Part shown: piece by piece, positions 34,454-49,797 of the stretch | Numbering within the stretch: the stretch's first letter is position 1 | Layout: every line of letters starts with the position of its first letter | Program-made: the position numbers and the translations under genes | The notes under the pieces: generated by a model | Seen by the model: only the letters and a program-made list of their open reading frames with translations | What the model was told of the DNA's origin: nothing | Database searches by the model: none | Assembly: GCA_029547705.1 (NCBI GenBank) | Contig: JAKPOU010000055.1 | Location: 124,001 to 188,000 of the forward strand | Reading direction: 5' to 3' | DNA: 64,000 bases | Source of the DNA: Bacteroidota bacterium | GTDB taxonomy: Bacteria; Bacteroidota; Bacteroidia; Bacteroidales; VadinHA17

Positions 34454-35920
34454 TCAAAGAGTGTCGCCGAAATCCTTTCTGTATGCTTCAGCCAGTCTTT
34501 CGGGCCAGTCACTGACAGGCTCCAGCCTGCCGGTGAAAAACCTCAGTACCGGAGGTTCTTCCACAAACCTTAATCCGCCCACCAGTTCCCTGTTTTTGTA
34601 CAACCAGTTAAGACGGTCAATAGTGTATTCCACCTGGGAAAGGGTAAATACCCTTCTCGGCAATGCCAGCCTCATCAGTTCAAGATCGGCATATATCTCA
34701 TTACCATCCTCATCACGGGTGCTGCTCATGGTACCCCTTTCCATTCCCCTCACTCCCGAAGCAATGTAAAATGCTGAAACAAGGGATGCGGCAAGATATT
34801 CCGACTGCGGCAGATGGGGGAGGAACTGGGTGGCATCAACATGGCAGCCAAGTGCCCCGCCGGGTGTTACCACGGGAATACCGAGCTTTACAAGCTCTCC
34901 TATCATGTATTCTATGAACATCGGAGACTGACCGACAACATCCTCTTCCAGTGTCTCTGCAAGTCCCTGCGCCATTGCTTCTATTTCCCGGACCGAAATA
35001 CCCCCGTAGGTGAGAAATCCTTCATATAATGGAACCAGATGCTTCATACTTGTATATATATCTTCGGAATTGGTACAGATAGCACCGCCTTTGGCCGAAC
35101 TGACCTTCCTGCCGGAAAAATAAACAATATCGCATAATTCACACATTTTCAACAGTATGGATCCGATTGTCTCTTTTTCACATCCGGCTTCCCTCTTTAA
35201 AATGAAATAGGCATTTTCTCCTATAAGACTGGCATCCAAAACTATCAGAAGATTATACTTATCTGCAATCTTTCTCACATCCCTCAGATTTGCCAGGGAG
35301 AAGGGCTGACCGCCGATAAGGTTTGTTGAGGCTTCCATTCTGATGAAGGGGATATTTTCAGGCTTCACCTCAAGGATGGTTTTTTCCAGTCTTTCCGTGT
35401 CAATGTTTCCCTTGAAGGGATGAGAGCTGCTTATTTTCATGGCCTCAGGAGTATACAGCTCGAGTATGCTGCCTCCGTTGAGTTCGATATGGGCACGGGT
35501 GGTTGTGAAATGGTAGTTCATGGGAATAACCGATCCTTCACTGATAAAGGCTTTTGAAATAATGTTTTCAGCCGCCCTTCCCTGGTGTACCGGAAGAATA
35601 TATTTCTTTCCGAAAACCTCATTTACACTTTTCTCGAATCTGCTGAAACTGACCGAGCCGGCATAGGCATCATCAGCCACGAACATTGTCGAAAGCTGCC
35701 TGTCGCTCATGGCATTGGTTCCGCTGTCGGTCAGCATGTCGAGAAAAATATCCTTTGTCGACAGAAGAAATGAATTGTATCCGGCTGCCTTTACAGCCTT
35801 CAGCCTTTGTTCAACAGGCACGAGATTCAGTGACTGGACAATGCGTACCTTGTGCATCTCAAGGGGAATCTGCTTGCCGTTGAAAAATTTTACGGTGCGG
35901 TTGTTGCTTATCTTTTCCAT
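34454..35920 (-). CDS. Tryptophanase/tyrosine phenol-lyase family protein (retains PLP Lys)
   Basis: LLTDSGTNAMSDRQ; PVHQGRAAEN; ASTNLIGGQPFSLAN; SGRKVSSAKGG; FVEEPPVLRFFTGRL. Start at 35920 preferred over 35962. Confidence 0.85.
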   Translation of the reverse strand: MEKISNNRTVKFFNGKQIPLEMHKVRIVQSLNLVPVEQRLKAVKAAGYNSFLLSTKDIFLDMLTDSGTNAMSDRQLSTMFVADDAYAGSVSFSRFEKSVNEVFGKKYILPVHQGRAAENIISKAFISEGSVIPMNYHFTTTRAHIELNGGSILELYTPEAMKISSSHPFKGNIDTERLEKTILEVKPENIPFIRMEASTNLIGGQPFSLANLRDVRKIADKYNLLIVLDASLIGENAYFILKREAGCEKETIGSILLKMCELCDIVYFSGRKVSSAKGGAICTNSEDIYTSMKHLVPLYEGFLTYGGISVREIEAMAQGLAETLEEDVVGQSPMFIEYMIGELVKLGIPVVTPGGALGCHVDATQFLPHLPQSEYLAASLVSAFYIASGVRGMERGTMSSTRDEDGNEIYADLELMRLALPRRVFTLSQVEYTIDRLNWLYKNRELVGGLRFVEEPPVLRFFTGRLEPVSDWPERLAEAYRKDFGDTL

Positions 35921-36158
35921 TTTTAAGAGTTTAAGTTGAAAAATGGCTGCTGATACTGCCATTATGCTTTTAAATCGACTCCAAACCTACTGTAATTTTA
36001 GATAATATCAAACAGGGTCCCTGATGCTGACAGTAATAAGCAGGCTTTTTTGAGCTTAAAAATTTCTTATATTGCTTATTGTATGGGGAGATCTGCCTGA
36101 CTGAAAATTATTTTCGGTGTTCGTTTTGAATTATTTTCTTTGTATCTGAATTTGTGAA

Positions 36159-45309: not shown

Positions 45310-46185
45310 TCAGAGTATGTTAAGTGTCTGTTCCTTTATTTTTTCAAGGTCGTCCTTCATCATCACCACCAGTTTCTGGATTTTTGAATCATTTGCCTTG
45401 GAGCCGATGGTATTGATTTCCCGGCCTATTTCCTGTGCTATGAAATTCAGTATTTTTCCGTTGGGCGGCGGTGTTTCAATCTTTTCAATAAAATATTCGC
45501 AATGATTCCTCAGTCTTACCTTCTCTTCATTGATGTCGAGTTTTTCCAGATAAAAAAGTATCTCCTGTTCAAACCTGTTCCCGTCGATATTTTCTCCGCC
45601 CACATTTTCCTCAAGAAGCCTGTGCAGCCTTTCCCTTATTCTCTCAATTCTGTTTCCCTCATATCTTCCTATCTCGTCGAGGAGGGAGATTATCCTGCCT
45701 ATACACAGTCTGAGATCAGATTCAATTGATCTGCCTTCTTCCGTCCTGAAAGTATCGAGTTGCTGAAGCGATTCATCAAGTTTTTCCAGTACCTCGTTCC
45801 ACTCTTCTACGGGCAGTTCCGTTTTTTCTGTTTTCAGGGATTCCGGGAATTTCAGTACAGCCGACAGCAGGTCCATACCCGGTTCAATGCCGAGTTCTCC
45901 GGATATTTCCCTGATCTGGGTGTAATAGGATCTTACCACAGCTTTGTTGATCAGCGGAACTGATTCAGCATCCGTTATATCGAAAGATATTACCAGATCA
46001 ATTTTCCCCCTGTCAAGCAGCCTGCTTATACGGTTGCGTATTTCACTTTCTTTTTCCCTGTACAGCCATGGCAATCGTGTATTCAGATCGAATTGCCTGG
46101 AATTAAGTGATTTCAGTTCTATTAATACCTTCTTTCCGGGAATTTCCGCTACGGCTTTCCCGTAGCCTGTCATGGATTTTATCAT
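45310..46185 (-). CDS. YicC family endoribonuclease-like protein
   Basis: MIKSMTGYGKA; LNSRQFDLNTRLP; C-terminal DLEKIKEQTLNIL. Confidence 0.93.
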   Translation of the reverse strand: MIKSMTGYGKAVAEIPGKKVLIELKSLNSRQFDLNTRLPWLYREKESEIRNRISRLLDRGKIDLVISFDITDAESVPLINKAVVRSYYTQIREISGELGIEPGMDLLSAVLKFPESLKTEKTELPVEEWNEVLEKLDESLQQLDTFRTEEGRSIESDLRLCIGRIISLLDEIGRYEGNRIERIRERLHRLLEENVGGENIDGNRFEQEILFYLEKLDINEEKVRLRNHCEYFIEKIETPPPNGKILNFIAQEIGREINTIGSKANDSKIQKLVVMMKDDLEKIKEQTLNIL

Positions 46186-46255: not shown

Positions 46256-47632
46256 TCAGGCCACTTCCAGCTCAAGGGTGAAATAGCGGAGGATGGGCTC
46301 TTCCTTTATGATCCTGTATCCCTTGTTTATTGCTCCTTTTCTGTTGAATACATTTTTCACGACAGCCGCTACATATGACATATGGTTGTCTGTATAAACC
46401 CTCCGGGGGATAGCCAGCCTGACAAATTCATTTGCAGGATAACGGTTTTCACGTGTTAGCGGATTCCGGTCAGCCAGCAGGGTGCCCACTTCGCTTCCTC
46501 TTACACCGCCTTCAATAAATATTTCACAGACAAGCACCTGTGCGGGAAATTCTTCTTTTGGCACAAGCGGAAGGAATCTGTCCACATCAATGAAAATTGC
46601 ATGTCCGCCGAAAGGTTCCACAACCGGGATTCCGTATTCCTTAAGCTTTGAACCAAGAAATGCCGTCTGGTTTATTCTTGATCTGATGAAATCTGTATTC
46701 GTGCCTTCATACAGTCCGCGTGCCAGGGCATTCATGTCGCGCCCGCTCATTCCCCCGGTGTGGATCAGTCCTTCATGTACCATGTTGAACCTGACAGCTT
46801 CATGATACAAGGTCTCATCCCTGAATGCGGTAAATCCGCCAGTGTTGGAGATGGCATCTTCCTGTGCGCTCATTGTCATTGCATCCGCATGGGAAAACAT
46901 TTCAAGCAGAATCTCCCTGATACTTTTATCGGCATACCCGGCTTCCCTGGTTTTGATGAACCAGGCATTTTCGGCAAACCTCGACGAGTTGAGGATTAGT
47001 TTTACACCATATTTATATGATAGTTCACGGATATTTCTGATATTTTCCATGCTTACCGGCTGGCCTCCGGTCGAATTGTTGGTAACAGACAGGATGATAC
47101 AGGGAATTCTTTCCCTGGAATTGTTGCTGAGAATGTCATCCAGCCTTCCCAGGTCCAGGTTTCCCTTAAATGGATGATATGCATAAAGATCATTTGATTC
47201 CCTGATGGTGCAGTCGACCGGAATTGCCTTCCTGTACTCAATGAGTGCCCTTGATGTGTCGAAAAGTGAATTGCAGGGGACAATATCGCCCTCTTTAAGC
47301 ATTGCGGAAAAAAGAATACTGTCGGCAATCCGGCCCTGGTAGGTTGGTATGATCCTTTGGAATCCGGTAATGTCGTAGATTGCCTGCCGGAGGTTATCAA
47401 ATGATGAGGTGCCGGCATAACTTTCATCTCCTGTGAACAGGGCTGACCATTGCCTGTCGCTCATGGCACCGGATCCGGTATCAGAGACAAGATCAATGGT
47501 TACCTGTTCGGATTTCAGATTGAAAACGTTGAATGAAGCATCCCTTATCCATTTTTCCCTTTCTTCTCTGGAGCTTGTGTATACAGGCTCCGTCATTTTT
47601 ATCTTGTAGGGCTCAAATAATGGTAATTTCAT
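46256..47632 (-). CDS. Tryptophanase/tyrosine phenol-lyase family protein lacking the PLP-binding lysine
   Basis: LVSDTGSGAMSDRQWSALFTGDESYAGT; TNNSTGGQPVSMEN; MSAQEDAISNTGG (canonical MSAKKDA); EPFGGHAIFID; IPRRVYT. Confidence 0.88.
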   Translation of the reverse strand: MKLPLFEPYKIKMTEPVYTSSREEREKWIRDASFNVFNLKSEQVTIDLVSDTGSGAMSDRQWSALFTGDESYAGTSSFDNLRQAIYDITGFQRIIPTYQGRIADSILFSAMLKEGDIVPCNSLFDTSRALIEYRKAIPVDCTIRESNDLYAYHPFKGNLDLGRLDDILSNNSRERIPCIILSVTNNSTGGQPVSMENIRNIRELSYKYGVKLILNSSRFAENAWFIKTREAGYADKSIREILLEMFSHADAMTMSAQEDAISNTGGFTAFRDETLYHEAVRFNMVHEGLIHTGGMSGRDMNALARGLYEGTNTDFIRSRINQTAFLGSKLKEYGIPVVEPFGGHAIFIDVDRFLPLVPKEEFPAQVLVCEIFIEGGVRGSEVGTLLADRNPLTRENRYPANEFVRLAIPRRVYTDNHMSYVAAVVKNVFNRKGAINKGYRIIKEEPILRYFTLELEVA

Positions 47633-47739
47633 AATTACAGATGATACAAAATAATAACTAACCGTAGAGTCAAAATACTCCCCTGCAGCCAGCTATTGGA
47701 TTTGTATAATTATGAGGAATTCCCTTATAAAATATAACC

Positions 47740-47794
47740 GGTTAAATTACCGTTATCTGTTTGCCTTATGATCCGGAAGGTAATTTACCGTTAT
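47740..47794. promoter_or_regulatory. Repeated candidate operator TTACCGTTAT, 2 copies
   Basis: GGTTAAATTACCGTTAT (47740-47756) and GGTAATTTACCGTTAT (47779-47794) between divergent genes. Confidence 0.4.
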
Positions 47795-47886
47795 AAGAAA
47801 AGTCCATTTTTCTGGGATCATCAGACAGGTAAAATTATAAATATTTTATAATATATTCAACGAAAAAAATTAGAGTTTTAATTATA

Positions 47887-49797
47887 ATGAGTTTAAAAAA
47901 TTTAAAATATCTGGGATTAATATTTATTTCATTACTTGCCTATAATGCTTATTCTCAGGATAAAACACAGACTGACAGTCTGAAAAGGGCAATGACAGAC
48001 GGTCAGGCAGTGGAAATGGCTGACAGTTCCGGAGTGGAAACAGCCGACAGCTCCGGCGTGGAGCTGATCGACAATCCCGGAAAGATTGTGATTGATTCGC
48101 TGAAAAGGAAGGGAATAATACTCAGTGACCAGAAAGAAATGCCGGAAATAGTACTTTCTGCTGAACAGGCAGTAAAATTCCTTCAGGAACGCAGCATGCC
48201 GGGATACTGGAAAAATCCTGATGATCCTCTGAGGGCTGCAATCCGTCAGCTGGTATTCAAAGCCATCAATCCTCCCTGGGATTCCGCGGAACTGTTCATC
48301 TCAAAATACCCTTTTGACTCCCTGAATGTTTCGTGGGATAAATTTTATGTCTGGAAGCCCGTCAGAATGAAGATTCCTGCCATCTCTCCCCCTCCTTTGC
48401 CCACAGTTGCCGATACGATGGCACTGCCAGTAATCCCGGTCTGGGATTATCCCCCCGACACGGCCCGGATCATTGATATTAAAATCCCTGAGTTTCCGGA
48501 ACGATCAGTACGCAGGGCATATTTAAAGGATACTGTCATATACGTGGTTGCAGATACTTTGCGGGAAGTGGTTCCGGATTATCCCGGATTCCCGTTTACG
48601 CATTACGATGCACCATTCCAGGGTGATTCTCTAAGGACAGCAGTAAGAACACTCAGCAGTTACATTCAGGCAAAGGATTCAAGCATAGTCTATTTCACTG
48701 GTCTCGGGGATGTTATAACTCCGGTCTGGCTCAATTCCCGTTCAGGGATGATGCACCGGTACTGGCTGAAGACTGATCTGAATGATTCGGTAACGGTATG
48801 GATTGGCTCACAGGACAGAAATACCATTGGTCTTTACCTTGAGACGGGCGTGAGTTTTGCCAGGCCCGTGAGACAGGGTTATCAGTCAACAGCAAGAATC
48901 GAATTGCAGGAGATAGACAAATCCACATTGCTTGCAGTAAAAAAAATCATCACAAAACCTCTCCGCTGGAAGTATCACACCGAAACTTCATTTGCCCTGA
49001 ACCAGGCTGCACTTTCAAACTGGGTAAAGGGAGGGGAAAGCAATATATCAACATCCATTGATATTACCGGGTATGCCGACTATACAAACAAGCCATACAA
49101 CATCACATCCAATAATTTTGCCCGTATCAAGTATGGTCTGGTTGCTTCGGGCGATAAAGGGGTAAGAAAGAACCTCGACCTGCTGGAAACCAATTCCAAG
49201 ATCAACCACAAGGCTTTCGGGAAGTTTGATTTCAGCGGGATACTTTTGTTTAAAACGCAGATAGCCAAGGGATATAATTATCCCAATGATTCGGTGCCGG
49301 TGTCGAAATTTCTTAACCCGGGAATTCTTACACTCGGTGTGGGACTTGATTATAAACCGGATAAAAATACTTCCCTCAACTTTTCACCGGTATCCTACAA
49401 GGGTACTTATGTGCCGGATACGGCAAATATTGACCAGACTAAATACGGTATTGCAGCAAACCGGAGATCAAAGAATGAGTTCGGGGCCAGCTTCATGATA
49501 AGCAATGTATATAAACTGACTCCAACCATTGCGCTGACAAACAGGCTTCAGCTCTTTACCAATTATATTAATAATCCGCAGAATATTGATATAGACTGGG
49601 AAATGATAGTTACGGCCAAACTCAACTGGTTTACCGATGTAAGGCTCAACACCCATCTTATATTTGATGATGATACAAAGACAGCTGTTTATGACAAGGA
49701 TAACAAGCCGGTGATGGGACCGGATAATCAGATTAAGAAAACTGCCCGGGTCCAGTTCAAGCAGTTACTGGGTTTTTCCTTTATATTCAGGTTTTAA
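47887..49797 (+). CDS. DUF3078-like outer membrane-associated protein
   Basis: Signal peptide; WKYHTETSFALNQAALSNWVKGGESNIS...; terminal FSFIFRF typical of beta-barrel outer membrane proteins. Confidence 0.7.
   Translation: MSLKNLKYLGLIFISLLAYNAYSQDKTQTDSLKRAMTDGQAVEMADSSGVETADSSGVELIDNPGKIVIDSLKRKGIILSDQKEMPEIVLSAEQAVKFLQERSMPGYWKNPDDPLRAAIRQLVFKAINPPWDSAELFISKYPFDSLNVSWDKFYVWKPVRMKIPAISPPPLPTVADTMALPVIPVWDYPPDTARIIDIKIPEFPERSVRRAYLKDTVIYVVADTLREVVPDYPGFPFTHYDAPFQGDSLRTAVRTLSSYIQAKDSSIVYFTGLGDVITPVWLNSRSGMMHRYWLKTDLNDSVTVWIGSQDRNTIGLYLETGVSFARPVRQGYQSTARIELQEIDKSTLLAVKKIITKPLRWKYHTETSFALNQAALSNWVKGGESNISTSIDITGYADYTNKPYNITSNNFARIKYGLVASGDKGVRKNLDLLETNSKINHKAFGKFDFSGILLFKTQIAKGYNYPNDSVPVSKFLNPGILTLGVGLDYKPDKNTSLNFSPVSYKGTYVPDTANIDQTKYGIAANRRSKNEFGASFMISNVYKLTPTIALTNRLQLFTNYINNPQNIDIDWEMIVTAKLNWFTDVRLNTHLIFDDDTKTAVYDKDNKPVMGPDNQIKKTARVQFKQLLGFSFIFRF

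Follow-up and report, generated by a model that had tools for sequence, protein, structure and literature searches.

The gene analysed here lies in a 64,000-nucleotide stretch of a Bacteroidales genome (G000; 3.78 Mb in 70 contigs), hereafter referred to as the window, and its reading frame of 458 codons runs without an internal stop (Table 1). Sequence and fold both place the encoded protein in the TnaA/TPL family. It passes the PF01212 profile with 215.6 bits (cut-off 27) and the NCBIfam tryptophanase subfamily model NF009709 with 587.6 (cut-off 285); its score with the TnaA equivalog model NF053783, 681.7 bits, falls below the cut-off of 750. An AlphaFold2 model of the protein (pLDDT 88, pTM 0.89) retrieved, as its top Foldseek match, the holo tryptophanase of B. 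thetaiotaomicron (8sbg; TM 0.92, 54% identity), and it aligns with the nearest TPL/TnaA structures at TM 0.92-0.95. The fold is thus intact by prediction. Judged by the residues that define the enzyme, the protein is not a tryptophanase.

Since the gene sits between yicC and the DUF3078 gene in the same way as the ordinary tnaA of other species of the genus, we regard it as the genus's tnaA ortholog and not as a spare copy; by this gene order it is a tnaA altered in place at its ancestral locus. An extra divergent paralogue was ruled out by the same synteny. The earlier note on this DNA had viewed the gene as one of two paralogues, which is correct insofar as a second family gene is present in the window, but it did not recognize the locus as that of the altered ortholog.

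Table 1. Coordinates, within the window, of the altered tnaA gene, its diagnostic codons, its upstream elements and the genes discussed with it.
Feature	Position	Strand	Remarks
TPL-like paralogue	34454..35962	(-)	Schiff-base Lys kept (FSGRKV); closer to TPL
yicC, downstream neighbour	45310..46185	(-)	same position beside ordinary tnaA genes elsewhere in the genus
TnaA-fold CDS, 458 aa	46256..47632	(-)	PF01212; translation and profile search
Tyr450 = TnaA His463	46283..46285	(-)	Y/Y/Y/Q across the Glu clade
Arg405 = TnaA Arg419 / TPL Arg404	46418..46420	(-)	kept 4/4
Thr292 = TnaA Tyr307	46757..46759	(-)	T/T/N/G across the Glu clade
Gln257-Glu258, codons CAG (46862-46864) GAA (46859-46861)	46859..46864	(-)	= E. 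coli TnaA Lys269-Lys270
Asn215, codon AAC	46988..46990	(-)	= PLP pyridine-nitrogen Asp, TPL D214
Upstream block of 63 bp, non-coding	47678..47740	(-)	Glu clade only
Probable relic of tnaA leader ORF, MIPEKWTFLITVNYLPDHKANR*	47753..47821	(-)	N-terminal remnant, core missing
Divergent DUF3078 gene, 636 aa, upstream neighbour	47887..49797	(+)	likewise syntenic

Residues 257 and 258 of the window protein align with K256 and K257 of TPL, and both the codons CAG GAA and the alignment to TnaA and TPL confirm the Gln-Glu pair that had been read in place of the family's Lys-Lys. Position 258, that of the Schiff-base lysine, is Glu in all four members of the clade described below and Lys in 109/109 other orthologues; in the latter, ordinary Bacteroidota proteins that were chosen by their KKD motif and outside of which there are only the four Glu proteins and more distant paralogues, Lys257, Lys258, Asp215 and the phosphate Arg are invariant. 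In structures of TnaA and TPL, the ring aspartate at position 215 pairs with the PLP nitrogen, His463 sits on the substrate side of the TnaA pocket and Arg419 (TPL Arg404) contacts the substrate carboxylate; Asn198 likewise lies in the cleft. The exchange of this aspartate for Asn, as reported in the earlier note, holds for the window protein and two of its relatives but not for G012, which retains the Asp found in 109/109 ordinary orthologues.

Throughout the four Glu proteins the equivalents of Lys270, Tyr307 and His463 are gone, and that of Lys269 is replaced in three. Of the four, only the window protein retains Tyr at the Tyr74 equivalent, which is Phe in its three relatives, and the Arg103 equivalent has become Pro in G066 alone. 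Retained are the equivalents of Gln101, Gly102, Ser267, Asn198, Asp137 and the carboxylate Arg419. In E. coli TnaA, Lys270 bears the PLP, the phosphate of the PLP in the adjacent subunit is held by Tyr74 and Tyr307 (the latter through a hydrogen bond), and a Y74F variant has negligible activity (PMC2770544). The Lys270Ala variant of the same enzyme is inactive, yet it is still made and localised (PMC4323232).

Of 146 columns with a conservation of 98% or more among ordinary proteins, 109 proved intact in each of the four Glu proteins; the other 37 are altered, and these are enriched for PLP/substrate residues (9/17 versus 28/129, p = 0.009, with the list of such residues drawn from the literature and general background rather than from structure coordinates). 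Each Glu-clade protein deviates at 16-31 of the invariant columns; ordinary members do so at 7 at most, with a median of 0. Of the motifs that the earlier note listed as well preserved, TYQGR is in fact changed: the window protein carries Tyr98, a position occupied by His in 109/109 ordinary proteins. Another lysine taking over the pocket had been named as a possible objection to the loss of the cofactor residue. A comparison of the four Glu proteins revealed no new Lys fixed clade-wide near the pocket at a plausible replacement site; the sole near-clade-wide gain, K432, is far from the pocket in sequence, and a replacement Lys elsewhere was thereby ruled out. We also judge it highly improbable that the protein is still a PLP or PMP enzyme with a non-covalently bound cofactor in the manner of ColD, although some weak non-covalent binding of PLP may persist. 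Kept Gln101, Gly102 and Ser267, an Arg103 present in three of the four proteins and the Asp215 of G012 would be in keeping with such an enzyme, but the ring Asp is Asn in three members, the phosphate tyrosines acting in trans are lost or altered (Tyr307 in four, Tyr74 in three) and G066 has Pro in place of Arg103.

Glu at the Lys270 position occurs in 4/63 genomes of the genus: that of the window, G069 (QE at positions 257-258; 93% identity to the window protein), G066 (contig DNOQ01000414.1 of isolate UBA8908; RE; 77%) and G012 (KE; 72%). Homologues with the same QE pair, for which the earlier note had suggested a search together with an analysis of purifying selection, are hence represented by G069 and joined by the RE and KE forms, and purifying selection was found (see below). 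In the phylogenetic tree the four species, all uncultured Bacteroidales, form one clade with 100/100 support, nested among the genus's ordinary TnaAs, one of which is its nearest neighbour. At codons 257-258 the ordinary relatives read AAA AAA, G012 reads AAA GAA, G066 AGA GAA, and the window and G069 CAG GAA, a series that fits an order of events in which the Schiff-base Lys would have been lost first and the neighbouring Lys later. As Glu is present in four separate genomes, a sequencing or assembly error was ruled out; the earlier view that the change is not a single-base error is borne out by the three further species.

Beyond the genus, our searches turned up no additional case. A scan for a restricted ED motif in a sample of 399 genomes of the phylum returned the window only, and a pattern admitting most non-Lys codons, applied to 395 genomes of the order, returned the window and one chance match (L050), with the proviso that patterns of this kind do not detect copies whose neighbouring residues vary, as happened to G066 with the initial pattern used in the genus. 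Among the best 80 GTDB loci, only G066's own contig was added.

A family search detected no second tryptophanase in the four Glu genomes, a statement with a margin of 5-10% given that the assemblies, some or all of which derive from metagenomes, are incomplete and in pieces; besides the Glu gene they contain only the TPL-like paralogue, and this in three of the four. Loss of tnaA is common in the genus, with no match in 12/63 genomes and further genomes having the paralogue only. In two other members of the genus, tnaA is broken by stops or frameshifts (G062:C4:6242-7467 and G028:C92, locus L020), and these two copies provide a picture of real decay in the genus. The G069 copy (L043, at about 11967) has AGG in the position of the ATG; the upstream in-frame start listed for it, a GTG, lies some 12 codons before this position. 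This copy may use another start or may be newly disabled.

Our selection analysis speaks against the possibility that tryptophanase has become dispensable in these species and that we are looking at a pseudogene in the making. All four Glu genes maintain uninterrupted frames of 456-458 codons over a near-saturated synonymous divergence. The window gene and its G069 counterpart differ with a dN/dS of 0.047 at a dS of 0.72, and ordinary pairs have values of 0.03-0.09. A purpose-written branch codon model gave an omega of 0.065 for ordinary branches; for the Glu clade it was 0.20 on the stem and 0.071 inside. Separating the stem improved the fit by 2dlnL 7.9 for one parameter, and in the branch-by-branch test the stem was raised (2dlnL 9.6), this being one of 16 branches tested and the estimate depending on branches that are long and nearly saturated at synonymous sites. 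Within the clade, terminal branches range from 0.037 to 0.096, with 0.037 for the window and 0.038 for G069. Amino-acid change was faster on the stem, after which purifying selection regained its usual strength. Slow decay would find some support in the frequent loss of TnaA in the genus and its broken state in G062, in the missing ATG of G069 and in the disappearance of the leader peptide described below. We nevertheless consider it improbable: four intact frames and a dN/dS that stays within 0.04-0.10 along most of the clade's branches strongly disfavour it, the 109 invariant columns and an upstream block of 89-97% identity have been kept in all four species, and true decay in this genus comes with stops and fragments, as in G062. 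What we found is the loss of essential catalytic residues in a protein that is, as a whole, under purifying selection, the combination that characterizes a pseudoenzyme. The earlier note's proposals that selection rather than decay has acted on the gene, and that its PLP chemistry has in all likelihood been lost, both gain support from the four-species clade, from the dN/dS of its closest pair and from the fixation of Glu in 4/4 members.

The region upstream of the gene has been altered as well. Ordinary tnaA genes of the genus are preceded by a short leader ORF with the core IY[R/K]N[I/L]KNRD (also rendered as [I/L/V]Y[R/K]NIKNRD), usually followed by FF, that was detected in 28/28 members with enough upstream sequence; it sits about 60-350 bp upstream of tnaA (for instance at L006, L010, L042 and L047, among others). 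It is also present at 7 or more loci outside of the genus, with LYLNIKNRDTY and IFRNIKNRDRY as variants. As the leader varies mostly at third codon positions (minor-base fraction of 0.25, compared with 0.08 at first and 0.06 at second positions), the peptide is the conserved entity. No Pfam or NCBIfam model matched it. Its position resembles that of TnaC, the tryptophan-sensing leader of E. coli, and by this analogy we view it as a candidate TnaC-like leader peptide of Bacteroidales tnaA. The core is present in 0/4 Glu species, and is absent from positions 47633-47886 of the window; a short ORF in this interval is a probable relic of the leader (Table 1).

Between this relic and the gene lies a block of 63 bp, CGGTTATATTTTATAAGGGAATTCCTCAT...AAATCCAATAGCTGGCTGCA, that includes the palindrome GGAATTCC. 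It occurs in 4/4 Glu species, whose copies are 89-97% identical to that of the window, and in 0/59 other genomes of the genus. An Rfam search with the block gave nothing credible, and its predicted structure showed neither compensatory changes nor covariation; on these grounds a reading as a riboswitch was dropped. A regulon search found the block to be single-copy, bar one match with three mismatches to its core in G069. Its conservation identifies it as a putative cis element and no more.

The second family gene of the window, closer to TPL and still in possession of its Schiff-base Lys, had been proposed (as 34454-35920) to be the partner that the altered protein regulates. Where TPL has Arg217, this protein reads Leu (LDASL), and the copy in G012 does the same. 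The paralogue occurs in 23/63 genomes of the genus. A hetero-oligomer in which the Glu protein would be the lysine-less subunit, in the way of SPTLC1, could draw on the co-occurrence of both genes in G000, G069 and G012 and on their distance of about 11 kb in G000 and G012. A similar spacing (12-21 kb), however, separates the paralogue from an ordinary TnaA in G076, G002, G009 and G017, 11 genomes contain the paralogue but no TnaA, no copy of it was detected in G066, and the would-be partners share only about 35% identity. Moreover, the residues lent to the neighbouring subunit's PLP across the interface, Tyr307 (4/4) and Tyr74 (3/4), are lost in the Glu clade, and the paralogue keeps both of these tyrosines alongside its Lys. 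With no consistent co-occurrence and with the interface-donated tyrosines gone, we hold such a partnership, whether structural or regulatory, to be very unlikely, and the earlier proposal of it finds no support.

Taken together, our data show an in-place loss of cofactor residues with a single origin, purifying selection and an altered upstream region, in so far as gene sequences can establish this. We consider it quite probable that this lineage's tnaA ortholog has turned into a PLP-independent pseudoenzyme, and the protein very probably has a new job other than the breakdown of tryptophan. In the ancestor of the four species, the Schiff-base Lys was replaced by Glu, with Tyr307, His463 and neighbouring pocket residues changed as well; Asp215, Tyr74, Lys257 and, in one species, Arg103 were altered in some members, with the remainder of the protein staying under ordinary purifying selection. 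The leader peptide was lost en route to the same ancestor and the new conserved upstream block gained. The resulting protein should fold and oligomerise as TnaA does, should form no internal aldimine and should have no tryptophan indole-lyase activity, and it would have been recruited to another role under different expression control.

As to the nature of this role, Glu258 itself deserves attention. Given the neutral branch lengths of the model, its neutral survival in all four species has a probability of 8e-4, and the residue is therefore itself constrained, for reasons of chemistry or of structure. The main alternative to a non-catalytic role is a new PLP-free enzyme in which Glu258 would serve as acid/base and Arg405, Asn186 and Asp125 would hold an amino acid or aromatic acid as substrate. 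The constraint on Glu258, the retention of the carboxylate Arg and of the Asp137 and Asn198 equivalents, and an accelerated stem followed by constraint would agree with this. We still find it unlikely, since the pocket varies among the members (292 T/T/N/G, 257 Q/Q/R/K, 101 R/R/P/R, 450 Y/Y/Y/Q), unlike a conserved new active site, and no new gene neighbours hint at a pathway. If the protein is a pseudoenzyme, a non-enzymatic role is moderately favoured, be it the binding of an amino-acid-like ligand in the remodelled cleft, an option suggested by the kept equivalents of the carboxylate Arg419, Asn198, Asp137 and Ser267, or a structural or scaffold function. Either of these two roles is more likely than a newly acquired chemistry. 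A more specific reading, in which the tryptophanase ortholog has been converted in place into a PLP-independent protein with a new selected function, Glu258 plays a positive part as a new catalytic base or ligand contact, and control by the leader has given way to the new cis element, can be put forward only tentatively.

PLP enzymes form a large and well-studied superfamily with one defining lysine, and a single-copy orthologous member that loses this residue under continued strong selection seems to be rare. The progression from KK via KE to RE and QE in close relatives is an unusually readable record of the passage from enzyme to pseudoenzyme, for which the ordinary sister proteins serve as controls. 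There is also a practical side to it: annotation at the level of NF009709 names the Glu proteins 'tryptophanase', and their hosts would be counted as indole producers, which is very probably wrong.

With the tryptophanases of B. thetaiotaomicron (8sbg) and E. coli, the window protein shares the full-length fold, family membership and the Arg419, Asn198 and Asp137 equivalents, and its gene occupies the locus at which ordinary tnaA is found in the genus. Unlike them, it carries Glu, Gln, Asn, Thr and Tyr in place of Lys270, Lys269, the PLP-nitrogen Asp, Tyr307 and His463, respectively, and its gene has lost the leader core. Lys-less proteins of the PLP fold are known elsewhere; within the TnaA/TPL family, our search of the open literature found no precedent. 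In a sequence survey of the type I PLP domains in PKS/NRPS, the Lys was noted to be replaced by Thr or Val (PMC3870968). These are natural fold-type-I cases as well, but they are embedded in modular synthases and represent isolated substitutions that come with no selection analysis. In ColD (GDP-4-keto-6-deoxymannose 3-dehydratase), a fold-type-I enzyme that uses PMP, the Lys is replaced by His; ColD keeps its cofactor pocket, whereas the Glu clade has given up phosphate anchors and, in three of four members, the ring Asp. SPTLC1 (LCB1) of serine palmitoyltransferase is a fold-type-I protein without the PLP Lys, and the antizyme inhibitor is the fold-type-III counterpart of such proteins. While both have an active paralogous partner or target and the Glu gene is an altered ortholog with no partner indicated, they have in common with it a PLP-enzyme fold that is held under selection after the cofactor chemistry has, by all appearances, been lost.
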